In this document: in pieces, positions 25,083 to 28,965 of the stretch
Numbering within the stretch: the stretch's first letter is position 1
Layout: every line of letters starts with the position of its first letter
IMG/VR virus record: IMGVR_UViG_3300030098_001006
Span: 1-28,965 of that record
Source: a virus
DNA length: 28,965 nucleotides
Direction: 5' to 3' (one strand)
Notes under the pieces: model-generated
Databases searched by the model: none
Told to the model about the DNA's origin: nothing
The model's input: the letters and a program-made list of their open reading frames with translations, nothing else
Made by a program: the position numbers and the translations under genes

Positions 25083-25147
25083 GGGGTGTAAAAAGCTGTT
25101 TTAAGATTTGGTCATCACGCAGCTTTAAATGTGTTCTATACACCCCC
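25082..25147 (+). ncRNA. Nested hairpin element before methyltransferase gene
   Basis: The 85-base gap before the methyltransferase gene is highly structured. Outer stem: GGGGGTGTA (25082-25090) with TACACCCCC (25139-25147), nine pairs. Inner stem: AAAGCTG (25092-25098) with CAGCTTT (25120-25126), seven pairs, separated on the 5' side by one base. The inner loop has 21 bases and a 12-base single-stranded segment follows it. No T-run follows, so it is not a standard terminator. It could be a structured leader of the methyltransferase mRNA, a small RNA, or a DNA site such as an origin or packaging element. The GC-rich stem stands out in this AT-rich genome. I know no family that matches. Confidence 0.5.
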
Positions 25148-25167
25148 CCTCTTTGACTCGAACCACT

Positions 25168-25581
25168 ATGAAAAATAGAAATTTAACACATAGAGATGAT
25201 TGGAAAACACCACAAGATTTTTATAATAAATTAAATGAAGAATTTAATTTTGATTTTGATCCCTGTCCATATATGCACGATATGTCTTGGGATGGGTTAA
25301 AAATAGAATGGAAAAGTAGAAATTTTATTAACCCACCATATAGTAGAAAATTAAAAGAAGCCTTTATAATAAAAGCAATAGAAGAAAGCAAAAAAGGAAA
25401 AGTTTGTGTTATGTTATTACCCGTATCAACATCCACCAAAATATTTCACGACCATATTCTACCGAATAAAAAAGAAATTAGATTTATTAGAAGAAGATTA
25501 AAATTTAGTGGATATAATACAAAAGGGGAATATGTAGATAATAAAGTTGGTATGCACGACTCAATGCTAGTTATATTTTAA
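25168..25581 (+). CDS. Phage Dam-type adenine-N6 DNA methyltransferase
   Basis: A 137-residue protein from the ATG at 25168; an upstream ATG at 25129 lies inside the hairpin element and is unlikely. Motifs of the phage Dam (PF05869-like) family are present: D-D-W-K-T-P-Q-D-F-Y at 10-19, F-D-F-D-P-C-P at 28-34 and the catalytic N-P-P-Y at 55-58, then V-M-L-L-P-V-S-T-S-T and F-H-D-H-I, and the family's closing M-L-V-I-F. Length is short but typical for this compact family. It should methylate adenine in a short target such as GATC, though target specificity cannot be read here. In this genome it may protect phage DNA or control gene expression together with the modification-like cassette at 27865-554. 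Confidence 0.85.
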   Translation: MKNRNLTHRDDWKTPQDFYNKLNEEFNFDFDPCPYMHDMSWDGLKIEWKSRNFINPPYSRKLKEAFIIKAIEESKKGKVCVMLLPVSTSTKIFHDHILPNKKEIRFIRRRLKFSGYNTKGEYVDNKVGMHDSMLVIF

Positions 25582-25582
25582 A

Positions 25583-25780
25583 ATGAAAACAATATCAATT
25601 TTAATTTGTTGGGTTATTACATTATATATGCTAATAAACACAAACAATACTATTAAGGACTTTAACTGTAATATTAAAAATTTAGAAGATATTTCACAGA
25701 CCTTGTTAATAGATTCATTACAATTAGAGATAATGGAAATTGGAGCGGAATTAGATTCAATGTATTTAAAACACGATTAA
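25583..25780 (+). CDS. Small membrane-anchored hypothetical protein
   Basis: A 65-residue protein one base after the methyltransferase stop. The N-terminal 20 residues are hydrophobic (I-S-I-L-I-C-W-V-I-T-L-Y-M-L-I), a membrane anchor or uncleaved signal; the rest is a charged helical domain (S-L-Q-L-E-I-M-E-I-G-A-E-L). I do not recognise it. The stop codon is shared with the next start (TAATG). Confidence 0.55.
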   Translation: MKTISILICWVITLYMLINTNNTIKDFNCNIKNLEDISQTLLIDSLQLEIMEIGAELDSMYLKHD

Positions 25781-26118
25781 TGAAAGAATATCAATTACAA
25801 AAAGCAGTTTGTAAATATTTAGATTTAAACAATGTTTTATATTGTGGTAGTATGGGTGGACAATATCAAGTTCATTTTAGTCAGCGTATAAAAGCCAAAA
25901 AGTCTGGCTACAAAAAAGGTTTTCCTGATTTATTTATATATGAACCAAGAGGCGATTATTATGGATTAGCAATAGAATTGAAGGTTGGTTATAATAAGCC
26001 AACTAAGGAACAATTATATTGGCAAAAAGAGTTAAATAAAAGAAATTATAAATCTTGTGTTTGTAAAGGAATAGATGAAGCATTAGATACAATAATCAAT
26101 TATTTAAATGAAAGTTAA
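25780..26118 (+). CDS. VRR-NUC domain nuclease
   Basis: A 112-residue protein made of a single VRR-NUC (PD-(D/E)XK-like) domain. Motifs: E3 and Q5 in the first helix (K-E-Y-Q-L-Q-K-A), G-F-P-D at 47-50 with the catalytic Asp, and I-E-L-K at 65-68 with the E-x-K pair, followed by T-K-E-Q and W. Stand-alone VRR-NUC proteins are frequent in phages and are thought to cut branched or flap DNA during replication, recombination or packaging. The catalytic set is complete. Start ATG overlaps the preceding stop by one base, and the next gene starts 11 bases before its end. Confidence 0.85.
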   Translation: MKEYQLQKAVCKYLDLNNVLYCGSMGGQYQVHFSQRIKAKKSGYKKGFPDLFIYEPRGDYYGLAIELKVGYNKPTKEQLYWQKELNKRNYKSCVCKGIDEALDTIINYLNES

Positions 26119-26389
26119 ACCTACATTCTTCAACACAAGAAAAGACCGCTTACATTGGGATTACATAGATACTAACAGTTACCTGTTTACAATTTTATTT
26201 GAGAGTGGTGCGGAGTTATGTTTTGTTTTACGAGATTTGAAAAAAAACAATTCTATAAAGAATTATATTTATAAAAGGTTACATAAAAGATTTGGAAACA
26301 TAGCAGAGGTAGATATTTCTAAAATCTCAAGTGTAGAATATAATTTAATGAAGCAACTGAATATACCCTCTATAATAAAAATATGTTAA
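26108..26389 (+). CDS. Hypothetical protein
   Basis: A 93-residue, basic protein. The N-terminal half is strand-like (Y-L-F-T-I-L-F-E-S-G-A-E-L-C-F-V-L), the second half helical and rich in Lys and Tyr (I-K-N-Y-I-Y-K-R-L-H-K-R-F). No Cys pair, no membrane helix and no catalytic motif. Overlaps of 11 and 7 bases with its neighbours support a real gene. Function unknown; nucleic-acid binding would fit the charge, but that is a guess. Confidence 0.55.
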   Translation: MKVKPTFFNTRKDRLHWDYIDTNSYLFTILFESGAELCFVLRDLKKNNSIKNYIYKRLHKRFGNIAEVDISKISSVEYNLMKQLNIPSIIKIC

Positions 26390-26889
26390 ACGAATACCTT
26401 GTAGCAAACTATGATAAACTAAAGGATATGGTTTATAATATAAGTAGTGGCAGGGGTTCAGATGATTTATTAAGTTTTGTAATTGAAGAATTATATAAAT
26501 GTGATCAAGATAGAATAAAAGAAATTATAGATAAAAAGCAAATGACATTTTATGTGGCTCGTGTAATGGTTAATCAATTCTTTAGTAAAACAAGTAGATA
26601 CTACTATAAATACAAAAAGTATTATGAATATCACGTTTCGCAAATAGTAGAACAAATTACCGAAGATGAAGTTGATTTTATAATAGAAGAAAAGGAATTA
26701 ATAGAAGAACGGTTAAATTGGATAGATGACAAATTAAAAGATTTATATTGGTTTGATGCAGAGGTTTTTCGCATATATTACCGAGAGGGCTTTAGTTTAA
26801 ATCAGATGCAAAGAGAAACTAAAATAAACCGCAACACCCTTCACAAAGCAATAACAAATGTAAAAACCTATTTAATAAATGAGAAATAA
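26383..26889 (+). CDS. Sigma-70-like transcription factor
   Basis: A 168-residue protein that resembles a compact sigma factor. Residues about 22-80 are helical and resemble region 2: D-L-L-S-F-V-I-E-E-L-Y, then F-Y-V-A-R-V-M-V-N-Q-F-F followed by a Tyr/Lys-rich basic stretch S-R-Y-Y-Y-K-Y-K-K-Y that could contact DNA. Residues about 125-164 form a region-4-like helix-turn-helix: D-A-E-V-F-R-I-Y-Y-R-E-G-F-S-L-N-Q-M, then I-N-R-N-T-L-H-K-A-I. Proteins of this type in Bacteroidetes phages are annotated as sigma factors. It is the best candidate to read the four AAACAA-N10-TTTATATTTAT elements and switch on late genes. That pairing is inference from co-occurrence. Confidence 0.65.
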   Translation: MLNEYLVANYDKLKDMVYNISSGRGSDDLLSFVIEELYKCDQDRIKEIIDKKQMTFYVARVMVNQFFSKTSRYYYKYKKYYEYHVSQIVEQITEDEVDFIIEEKELIEERLNWIDDKLKDLYWFDAEVFRIYYREGFSLNQMQRETKINRNTLHKAITNVKTYLINEK

Positions 26890-26890
26890 T

Positions 26891-26983
26891 ATGTTACAAA
26901 ACGAAGAAGATTTTATAGCTAATGTTTTAGTTGGAGTCACAATTATGGCATTAATAACTTTATTTTTAATAGCACTATGGTAA
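26891..26983 (+). CDS. Very small single-helix membrane protein
   Basis: A 30-residue frame directly after the sigma-like gene and overlapping the next gene by seven bases (ATGGTAA). Residues about 9-30 are a hydrophobic helix (V-L-V-G-V-T-I-M-A-L-I-T-L-F-L-I-A-L-W) behind an acidic start (L-Q-N-E-E-D). The tight fit in the 87-base gap supports it. It could be a membrane regulator or accessory; no family is recognised. Confidence 0.5.
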   Translation: MLQNEEDFIANVLVGVTIMALITLFLIALW

Positions 26984-27336
26984 AAAGTAAAGGATTAGGT
27001 GATTCAGTAGAAAAGGTATTAAAGGCAACAGGAATAGATAAAGTTGCTAAAAAAATACTTGGTGATGATTGTGGGTGTGAGGAACGCAAGAAAAAACTAA
27101 ACCAAATGTTTCCTTATAGTAGACCATTTACTGATGATGAAATGTCTATATATGAATCGGTATTACCTAGATTGGATAAAGGAACAATAACAAGAGATGA
27201 CCAGGCTATTATGGTAAAACTATATAATAAGGTTTTTAAAGCCAATAAAAAACCAAGTGGTTGCAGTAGTTGTGTTCAACAAACATTAAGTAAATTAAAA
27301 AAAGTATATCAAAATAGTTGTAAAACAAATGGCTAA
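26977..27336 (+). CDS. Conserved Cys-containing phage protein
   Basis: A 119-residue protein with a basic, helical start (L-G-D-S-V-E-K-V-L-K-A-T-G-I-D-K), then D-D-C-G-C-E-E-R-K-K-K-L-N-Q-M-F-P-Y (about 30-47) and a C-terminal S-G-C-S-S-C pair. The 'G-L-G-D ... A-T-G-I ... C-G-C-x-x-R-x-x-x-L-N-x-x-F-P-Y' layout is common to a family in Bacteroidetes phages whose function I do not know. Four Cys in two close pairs (C-G-C and C-S-S-C) could bind zinc. It is followed by a run of very small genes with short overlaps. Confidence 0.65.
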   Translation: MVKSKGLGDSVEKVLKATGIDKVAKKILGDDCGCEERKKKLNQMFPYSRPFTDDEMSIYESVLPRLDKGTITRDDQAIMVKLYNKVFKANKKPSGCSSCVQQTLSKLKKVYQNSCKTNG

Positions 27337-27439
27337 AAGAATAATATATGATCATAAAATAAAAAAACGCAAAAAGCGTAAAGGTATACATAGTAAAAAT
27401 AATAAACCCATTAAAAAATATAGAGGACAAGGGAGATGA
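27329..27439 (+). CDS. Very small, highly basic protein
   Basis: A 36-residue frame overlapping the gene before by eight bases and the next by four (ATGA). It is dominated by Lys and Arg (K-I-K-K-R-K-K-R-K-G, K-K-Y-R-G-Q-G-R), so DNA or RNA binding is likely. The precise fit between neighbours argues that it is translated. No family is recognised. Confidence 0.5.
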   Translation: MAKRIIYDHKIKKRKKRKGIHSKNNKPIKKYRGQGR

Positions 27440-27597
27440 ATAAAGAAAGCCAAATGTTTAGATTTTGTTTGCGTTGTGTAAGAATGACCTTAGTGAAAAA
27501 TAATTGTTGTAATTTTTGTAAAGGAAAATTTTTAGTAACATCACACAAGGATGATTTGAAGTTAATGCCTAGAAAGAAATATGAAGAAGCATACTAA
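27436..27597 (+). CDS. Small zinc-ribbon-like protein
   Basis: A 53-residue frame with C11-L-R-C14 and C25-N-F-C28 (plus C24), a two-pair arrangement like a zinc ribbon, and a basic C-terminal part. It overlaps the genes before and after by 4 and 17 bases. Small proteins of this kind in phages can act as transcription or nuclease accessory factors. The next gene encodes an HNH nuclease, so a shared role in DNA handling is possible. Confidence 0.58.
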   Translation: MNKESQMFRFCLRCVRMTLVKNNCCNFCKGKFLVTSHKDDLKLMPRKKYEEAY

Positions 27598-27868
27598 AAT
27601 ATATATGCAGTTCTTCGATTATGGAGAACAATCGTTTGTTATGTGTGAAATGTGTCAACAAGACCGTGCAGTAGACATTCACCATTTAAATTCACGTGGA
27701 ATGGGTGGTAGTAAAAATAAAGATTACATAGAGAATCTAATGGGCTTGTGTAGAGATTGCCACAATAAGGCAGAGTCAGATTCGGCATTTAATATGTTCT
27801 GTAGGATAAAACACCTGGAGAATGTATGCCACCAAATATATGCTAACCAAAAAAGATTTAAGAAATGA
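27581..27868 (+). CDS. HNH endonuclease
   Basis: A 95-residue protein with a complete HNH core: zinc-binding C-E-M-C at 22-25, D-I-H-H at 32-35 with the catalytic His, a G-G-S-K-N-K loop, then E-N-L-M-G-L-C-R-D-C-H at 51-61 providing the Asn, the second Cys pair and final His. Small HNH proteins in tailed phages often help the terminase cut DNA at packaging, but these usually sit next to terS. On the circular map this one is about 1.6 kb before terS, so a packaging role is possible. Homing activity is less likely because it lies in a tightly packed operon, not inside an intron. It overlaps the ParB-like gene by four bases. Confidence 0.85.
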   Translation: MKKHTKIYMQFFDYGEQSFVMCEMCQQDRAVDIHHLNSRGMGGSKNKDYIENLMGLCRDCHNKAESDSAFNMFCRIKHLENVCHQIYANQKRFKK

Positions 27869-28371
27869 ACATAGAATTAATAGCTATAAATAAACTAAAA
27901 CCCGCTACATATAATCCACGACAGATTAGCACAAAGCAGTATAAAGATTTAAAAGAATCTATAGAGCGATTTGATTTGGTAGATCCCATAATAATTAACA
28001 AAGATTTTACAATAATAGGTGGACACCAACGCTACAAAATATGCAAGGAATTAAAACACAAAGAAATTGATTGTGTAGTATTAGACCTATCAAAAGAAGA
28101 AGAAAGAGAATTAAACATTAGATTAAATAAATCAGGTGGTGAATTTGATATGGATGTTTTAGCTAATGAATTTAATATAGATGATTTAGTTGATTGGGGT
28201 TTTAAGCATATTGACTTAGGATTAAATGTAGATAAAATACAACAAGACTTATCAGATAAAATAGATTTACAGTATAAAATAGAAGTAGAAGTAATATCTG
28301 AAAAAGAACAAGAGGAATTGTTTAATGATTTAACAAAAAAGGGATATATATGCCGAATTTTAACATTGTAA
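27865..28371 (+). CDS. ParB/sulfiredoxin-fold protein
   Basis: A 168-residue protein. Residues about 3-90 form a ParB N-terminal (ParB/Srx) domain: I-A-I-N-K-L-K-P-A-T-Y-N-P-R-Q with N-P-R at 17-19, L-K-E-S-I-E-R-F-D-L-V-D-P-I-I-I, and the phosphate-binding G-G-H-Q-R at 52-56. The rest is acidic and has no ParB C-terminal dimerisation domain. In phages this domain is often linked to DNA methyltransferases or other modification enzymes and is known to bind or hydrolyse nucleotides. Here it overlaps the ABC-ATPase/GNAT gene by 22 bases, so the two are translated together. I infer that it works with that enzyme, for example in target selection, not in partitioning; no ParA is seen. Confidence 0.8.
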   Translation: MNIELIAINKLKPATYNPRQISTKQYKDLKESIERFDLVDPIIINKDFTIIGGHQRYKICKELKHKEIDCVVLDLSKEEERELNIRLNKSGGEFDMDVLANEFNIDDLVDWGFKHIDLGLNVDKIQQDLSDKIDLQYKIEVEVISEKEQEELFNDLTKKGYICRILTL

Positions 28372-28965
28372 AAGAAGTAAAACCAAAAAAAAGTTTTAGA
28401 GTAAGCTCAATTATAGGTAAATTTGATTTACAAACAGAACATATTAAAGAACAATTTACAGGCAATATAGATTTAGATGATAATTGGCAAATAGGCGTAA
28501 TTGTTGGAAGTAGTGGTAGTGGTAAAACTACAATAGCAAAAGAGTTATTTCCCGATAGTTATATTACAGACTTTAAATATAAAGAAGAAACAATTTTAGA
28601 TGATATGCCTGAAGATAAAAGTGTAGATGAAATTACTAGAACTTTTAATAGTGTAGGTTTTTCTTCTCCACCAAGTTGGTTAAAACCATATTCAGTATTA
28701 TCTAATGGACAAAAAATGAGAGTAGATTTAGCTAATGGATTATTACAGGACAATGAGTTAATGGTCTTTGATGAATTTACTAGTGTAGTAGATAGAAATG
28801 TAGCACAGATAGGAAGTTATACAGTCCAAAAAGCAATAAGAAAGACCAAAAGAAAATTTATTGCTGTCAGCTGTCATAGTGATATAGTCGATTGGCTCTT
28901 GCCTGATTGGATATTTAATACTGATTCTATGACCTTTCAAAAACTTGAAGGGCAAAAAAAAAATA
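28350..28965 (+). CDS. ABC-ATPase/GNAT fusion protein, N-terminal part (continues at 1-554)
   Basis: The gene starts at the ATG at 28350, 22 bases inside the ParB-like gene, and runs to the window end; across the junction it continues in frame to 554. Full length 356 residues. The ATPase domain (about 1-200) has Walker A G-S-S-G-S-G-K-T at 53-60, an ABC signature L-S-N-G-Q at 117-121, Walker B L-M-V-F-D-E at 137-142 and the switch His in S-C-H-S-D at 174-178. There is no membrane segment, so it is a soluble ABC ATPase, like those of DNA repair or translation proteins, not a transporter. The short spacing between Walker A and signature shows a reduced helical subdomain. The C-terminal GNAT domain is on the other side of the junction. 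Likely role: ATP-driven control or delivery for the GNAT domain acting on DNA; this is inference. Confidence 0.88.
   Translation, partial: MPNFNIVKEVKPKKSFRVSSIIGKFDLQTEHIKEQFTGNIDLDDNWQIGVIVGSSGSGKTTIAKELFPDSYITDFKYKEETILDDMPEDKSVDEITRTFNSVGFSSPPSWLKPYSVLSNGQKMRVDLANGLLQDNELMVFDEFTSVVDRNVAQIGSYTVQKAIRKTKRKFIAVSCHSDIVDWLLPDWIFNTDSMTFQKLEGQKKN
28867..28965. repeat. Right copy of 99-bp terminal direct repeat
   Basis: Exact copy of bases 1-99. Joining the two ends at this overlap gives a circle of 28866 bp and restores one uninterrupted gene (28350 to 554). Base 28866 (G) is the last non-redundant base. Confidence 0.95.

Follow-up and report, generated by a model that had tools for sequence, protein, structure and literature searches.

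In the viral DNA described here, a stretch of 28,965 nucleotides referred to below as the window, a gene for a ParB/Srx-fold protein overlaps a gene whose product joins an ABC ATPase domain to a GNAT domain (ABC-GNAT). The two proteins probably constitute a phage DNA-modification module that acylates DNA, similar to Mom in its way of working yet distinct from Mom. This reading is supported by the gene pair itself, by the intact motifs and the folds, by the conservation of ParB and its fusion with the enzyme, by the exchange of ABC-GNAT with Mom and with methyltransferases, by its position in the mom slot of Mu-like phages, and by the basic character of the GNAT domain.

The ParB/Srx-fold protein (168 residues, positions 27865–28371, plus strand, as for all genes and coding motifs listed below) matches ParB_N (PF02195) with E 2.7e-9 and a score of 37.4 bits, above the curated cut-off of 26.3. 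Further matches are to phrog_620 (E 3.3e-35) and, with E 5.4e-34, to the ParB portion of the ParB-methyltransferase family phrog_498, whereas against the partition family ParB/RepB/Spo0J (TIGR00180) its 32.6 bits fall below the cut-off of 58.45. Its C terminus is conserved as GYxCRxLTL. The end of this gene (CRILTL and the stop codon) and the start of the ABC-GNAT gene (MPNFNIV) share 22 nucleotides at positions 28350–28371, exactly as the preliminary description of this DNA had stated.

An exact direct repeat of 99 bp is present at both ends of the window (left copy 1–99, right copy 28867–28965), and the contig therefore represents a circular genome that was cut within the ABC-GNAT gene. The open reading frame joined over the junction runs from the ATG at 28350 to the stop at 554 and encodes 356 residues; its first part (28350–28965) comprises residues 1–205 with the ABC domain, and its second part (1–554), joined over the repeat, comprises residues 174–356 and the stop codon. 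Relatives of equal length with an uninterrupted gene, such as L007 (356 residues, 89% identical), confirm the circular join and also the earlier reading of the gene across the contig junction to base 554. With 182 viral relatives and 479 relatives in cellular genomes confirmed by tblastn, the ABC-GNAT observation lies beyond chance.

The ABC-GNAT protein matches ABC_tran (E 3.9e-9) and Acetyltransf_1 (PF00583, E 3.4e-8) of Pfam and, over both domains (residues 9–333), phrog_11143 (E 2.7e-98), a family annotated as of unknown function. Sequence and alignment place Walker A (GSSGSGKT) at 28506–28529, the ABC signature (LSNGQ) at 28698–28712, Walker B (LMVFDE) at 28758–28775, followed by the D-loop (SVVDR) at 28782–28796 (together 28758–28796), and the switch histidine, within the motif CHSD, at 28872–28883. 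All five elements are intact, and an alignment of 66 sequences shows little or no variation in them. The GNAT domain (nt 90–551) contains the N-terminal motif HHYLS (165–179), of which His229 and Tyr230 are invariant among 66 relatives, and strand β4 with the acyl-CoA loop, VHRVVVMPDFQGIGIG (291–338), with the invariant Arg272 and with QGIGIG ending at 338. Every motif named in the preliminary description (Walker A, LSNGQ, Walker B, the switch histidine, and QGIGIG) is thus preserved. In phages of Lactococcus and Streptococcus the ATPase and the GNAT are encoded as separate adjoining genes after ParB. In the ABC-GNAT frame of two contigs (L040:8001-9062 and L041) an in-frame TAA falls exactly at the codon of the signature Gln of LSNGQ, with the remaining frame intact; either the codon has mutated to nonsense or the stop is recoded.

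The AlphaFold model of a relative that is 94% identical (pLDDT 88.7, pTM 0.81) consists of an ABC domain (residues 1–209) and a GNAT domain (residues 207–358), each with Z of about 15 against solved structures. The GNAT domain of the window protein, modelled separately (pLDDT 88.5), leads to the same structural outcome, with Z of about 15 to GNATs. Among the matches listed, the leading ones for the GNAT fold are RimI, Naa50, and IAA acetyltransferase (Z about 14–15). The expected GNAT fold is thus present, but the closest solved structures are protein and small-molecule acetyltransferases, which is part of what the preliminary description had named as counting against DNA modification, and the comparison of structures leaves this point unsettled.

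These matches bear on the main rival to DNA acylation, in which ABC-GNAT would acetylate a protein of the host or of the phage, such as RNA polymerase, a nuclease, or the terminase, and ParB would do no more than tether the complex to DNA. In addition to the nearest folds, this alternative agrees with the proposal that RimI-like phage GNATs target proteins (PMC5512222), with the acetylation of RNA polymerase by the phage protein Rac (PMC7824862), and with the location of the ABC-GNAT gene next to the terminase in most relatives. We nevertheless consider it unlikely, in view of a ParB partner that is common to Mom and DNA methyltransferases, of the mom-slot position in Mu-like phages, and of GNAT domains that are uniformly basic. 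The net charge of the GNAT domain is between +10 and +25 in all 66 relatives (median pI 10.5), while their ABC parts are mildly acidic (median net charge −2.5). Mom proteins are similarly basic, and a control set of ordinary GNATs has a median net charge of −3, a value based on no more than 11 usable proteins, of which two or three come from doubtful frames. A basic GNAT domain fits a nucleic-acid substrate, DNA and RNA alike.

The preliminary description had proposed a survey of gene neighbourhoods, with absence of conserved pairing counting against the module; pairing with ParB proves to be nearly universal among close relatives. By tblastn, ParB is located directly upstream of ABC-GNAT in each of the 80 viral relatives examined; a profile search finds it adjacent in 78 of the 80, with an overlap of exactly 22 nt in 77 of those 78. 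Of 80 cellular-genome relatives, 64 have ParB as a neighbour and two have it fused (66/80); the 22-nt overlap recurs in 29, and four of the remaining 14 have no upstream sequence in which ParB could be judged. The two single-chain ParB-ABC-GNAT fusions belong to Gemmataceae (L108, 611 residues) and Planctomycetota (L172, 584 residues), and the cellular carriers as a whole span Planctomycetota, Actinomycetota, Pseudomonadota, Spirochaetota, and Chloroflexota. In a tree of 94 dereplicated ABC-GNAT sequences, ParB-paired members occur within every main branch; no ParB was detected there for T4-like phages, for Nonlabens phages, or for some members of one Mu-like clade. The neighbour search likewise detected no ParB beside the enzyme in T4-like, jumbo, and Nonlabens phages, and the partner is therefore not obligatory.

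A small upstream gene that overlaps a downstream GNAT gene is also what would be expected of a toxin-antitoxin-like or superinfection-exclusion pair, in which the GNAT would acylate tRNA or aminoacyl-tRNA and would be restrained by ParB. GNAT toxins such as AtaT do exist (PMC7595197), and an RNA substrate is equally compatible with a basic GNAT domain. Such a pair is, however, very improbable here, as the genes are conserved beside packaging genes in both lytic and temperate phages, ParB and ABC-GNAT may be fused into single chains, and ParB accompanies DNA methyltransferases and Mom as well. PADLOC, in turn, returned no system match except for a weak similarity of the ATPase to mad3, confined to the ABC signature region.

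The company kept by this ParB subfamily links the pair, by context, to DNA modification. ParB of Enterococcus phage phiEf11 is 41% identical to the window ParB across 118 residues, and its gene overlaps by 14 nt a gene for Mom (PF25680, E 1.8e-45); in Microbacterium phage Appa the corresponding ParB/Mom (PF25680) overlap is 8 nt. ParB is adjacent in 70 of 80 viral loci with Mom of the phiEf11 type, some of which are near-copies of one another, and overlaps in nearly all of these 70. Many Streptococcus and gut phages carry a ParB domain fused to an N6/N4 DNA methyltransferase (N6_N4_Mtase), and PADLOC's type II methyltransferase model, MTase_II, likewise has a ParB part, to which the window ParB aligns (E 1.6e-20). 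One ParB subfamily is thus paired with ABC-GNAT, Mom, or DNA methyltransferases, the enzyme partner being exchanged.

The kinship to Mom that had been suggested for the GNAT domain does not extend to sequence. The window protein gives no match to the Mom profile PF25680 at E up to 0.1, compared with E of 1e-45 or better for true Moms, and alignment of the GNAT domain with Mom by hhalign has a probability of 0.2%; membership of ABC-GNAT in the Mom family is rejected on this basis. The structure of Mom (8bv8) is absent among the 50 structural matches listed, an absence that is no sign of a different fold. His48, Tyr49, and Arg101 are invariant in 17 Mom proteins, and His229, Tyr230, and Arg272 of ABC-GNAT are similarly placed, with the profile alignment covering the His-Tyr region only and being non-significant. 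The His-Tyr pair and the later Arg that are invariant in both families are treated as a lead only, read from sequence. Of the DNA-modification system inferred earlier, the pairing is therefore real, conserved, and tied by context to DNA-modifying enzymes, and the homology to Mom is the part that found no support.

The position of the gene in Mu-like phages is consistent with a Mom-like role. Within the clade that contains Pseudomonas phage Komp_PAO1_1, ABC-GNAT is encoded after the tail-fibre region; many contigs measuring about 33–45 kb have only a few bases to 2.5 kb between the end of the gene and the end of the contig. A transposase domain of the Mu type (Mu-transpos_C) is found in 14 of 25 long contigs of this clade, mostly near the opposite end; it is a better marker of Mu than DDE_2, which is present in 5 of the 25. 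Mu itself has mom as its last gene, and ABC-GNAT thus occupies the mom slot in Mu-like phages. Within the Komp_PAO1_1 clade a formyltransferase (PF00551) follows ABC-GNAT in 33 loci and is missing from 28, a further 19 lacking the sequence in which to judge. Formyltransferase genes of the same family lie directly 3′ of ABC-GNAT in Gordonia, Pseudomonas, and Porphyromonas phages (L089:2312-2962, L092:6074-6691, and L088:6089-6562); the one in Gordonia phage AnClar is annotated as a tRNA-methyltransferase. The putative adduct in the Komp_PAO1_1 clade may thus bear an amine that becomes formylated.

In the window, ABC-GNAT is followed by the terminase small subunit (572–919, phrog_4044, E 1.6e-12) and the terminase large subunit (900–2057, PF04466, E 1.3e-27). 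The latter is the usual +2 gene in viral loci and is also common in the cellular loci, many of which are therefore prophages. Upstream of ParB is an HNH nuclease (27581–27868, PF01844, E 2e-6), which is shared by only some relatives. A Dam-type adenine methyltransferase, encoded by a separate gene (25129–25581, PF05869, E 8.4e-20), and a VRR-NUC nuclease (25780–26118, PF08774, E 4.8e-7) complete the run of genes that had been connected earlier with the module; all three enzymes are indeed present, and their link to the module goes no further than co-location.

Several smaller genes are found in the same region or beside relatives of the pair. The product of a gene at 26383–26889 (168 residues) belongs to a family that 27 viral loci retain at a distance of three to six genes upstream of ABC-GNAT, and gave no above-chance match in Pfam and PHROG family searches. 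Since the gene following VRR-NUC in Nonlabens phage P12024S is annotated with sigma-70 region 2, this product is a possible sigma-like factor. A Cys-containing protein of 119 residues (26977–27336; phrog_32048, function unknown) is encoded upstream in 24 related viral loci, and an open reading frame of 53 residues with two CxxC pairs, resembling a zinc ribbon and without a family match, directly precedes the HNH gene (27436–27597). In Streptococcus phage MismyG the GNAT gene is succeeded by one with an ASCH domain (PF04266; L096:6117-6485), and a similar-looking gene is found beside ABC-GNAT in several cellular loci, such as L134; its product could possibly be a reader of a modified base.

The recurrent neighbours also bear on the annotation given in several records, according to which ABC-GNAT would be the ATPase of an ABC transporter or a small-molecule acetyltransferase. 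In the phage records H2, H4, H5, and H17 it bears the name of an iron siderophore transporter or of a hemin importer, and its ParB partner that of a DNA modification methylase; neither label seems to suit the genes present. The ABC domain does match transporter ATPases structurally. The entire chain, however, consists of ABC and GNAT, the neighbours are ParB and the terminase with no permease, and fusion with ParB occurs in two genomes, so that this assignment is scarcely credible; the transporter in particular is rejected, as no membrane domain is fused or adjacent.

A mechanism can be outlined for the favoured DNA-modification module. ParB-fold proteins in other fusions bind CTP, ATP, or GTP (PMC12704722), and the ParB-fold protein is predicted to be a nucleotide-binding positioning or clamp subunit, by which the enzyme is either recruited to phage DNA or gated there. 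ParB would use a nucleotide in loading or positioning the enzyme, as can be inferred by comparison with those fusions (PMC12704722) and with DpdB/DpdA (PMC12839542). The ABC domain would dimerise head to tail upon binding ATP and would clamp or distort DNA, making a base accessible. In SMC and Rad50 proteins, ABC dimers clamp DNA on ATP. The basic GNAT domain would then transfer an acyl group from acyl-CoA to an exocyclic amino group, with N6 of adenine as the most plausible acceptor, and DNA made late, about to be packaged, might thereby resist host restriction.

A more far-reaching version is put forward tentatively, and we hold it to be somewhat less likely to be right than wrong. The pair would then be a widespread, ATP-gated and acyl-CoA-dependent system for acylation of DNA bases, with its own chemistry and an origin independent of Mom, and in the Mu-like clade the adduct would be further formylated by the adjacent formyltransferase, yielding an N-formylated acyl (perhaps glycyl) base new to DNA.

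The core idea of DNA acylation is not new: in 2013 Iyer et al. (10.1093/nar/gkt573, to the extent conveyed by PMC7824862) predicted that GNATs coupled to an ABC ATPase acylate a DNA base, and a paper of 2021 (PMC7824862) repeated the prediction for Tenacibaculum phage pT24, whose protein is a tblastn relative of the window ABC-GNAT. What is documented here beyond that prediction is the pairing with ParB, the fusions, and the exchange of partners with Mom, some of which may already be contained in the 2013 work. The literature consulted, mostly papers available without subscription and hence a weak basis for absence, yielded neither a report of the ParB/ABC-GNAT pairing nor one of a modified nucleoside in any carrier of ABC-GNAT. 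In the paper on the Leptospira phages LE3 and LE4 both genes are classed under replication, restriction being outside its tests. Should the proposed module be real, an unrecognised modification of DNA bases would be present throughout a large family of phages and prophages, with consequences for restriction, sequencing, and phage biology, and ParB-fold proteins would serve phage DNA-modifying enzymes in general as a platform, whether these are methyltransferases, Mom, or ABC-GNAT. Cultured carriers are found among phages of Lactococcus, Streptococcus, Oenococcus, Gordonia, Arthrobacter, Pseudomonas, and Leptospira (Lactococcus P335, Arthrobacter EastWest, Gordonia Jace and AnClar, and Leptospira LE4 among them) and include Pseudoalteromonas SL25 as well, and the prediction of 2013 is directly testable in phages already in collections.

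Comparison with known systems places the pair closest to the ABC-coupled GNATs of Iyer et al. and PHROG 11143, with the same domain order, family, and functional proposal and with no difference in kind. Mom of phage Mu (PF25680; 8bv8) resembles ABC-GNAT in belonging to the GNAT superfamily, in its basic character, in the small overlapping partner gene upstream, and in the right-end slot in Mu-like phages, and tentatively also in the invariant His-Tyr pair and later Arg. The partner of Mu Mom is Com rather than ParB, whereas Mom of the phiEf11 type has the ParB partner in common with ABC-GNAT. Unlike ABC-GNAT, which keeps the canonical QGxGxG acyl-CoA loop and has an ATPase domain attached, Mom lacks this loop in the alignment. 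The phage fusions of ParB with N6/N4 methyltransferases (phrog_498) contain the same ParB subfamily as the window, and the fusion of this type in Streptococcus phage Javan124 is located a few genes upstream of the terminase, although their catalytic part is an AdoMet methyltransferase. Finally, in the insertion of 7-deazaguanine into DNA, the ParB-like ATPase DpdB serves DpdA during base insertion (PMC12839542); there, too, a ParB-like ATPase assists a base-modifying enzyme, but the chemistry and the enzyme fold are different and the system is one of bacterial defence.
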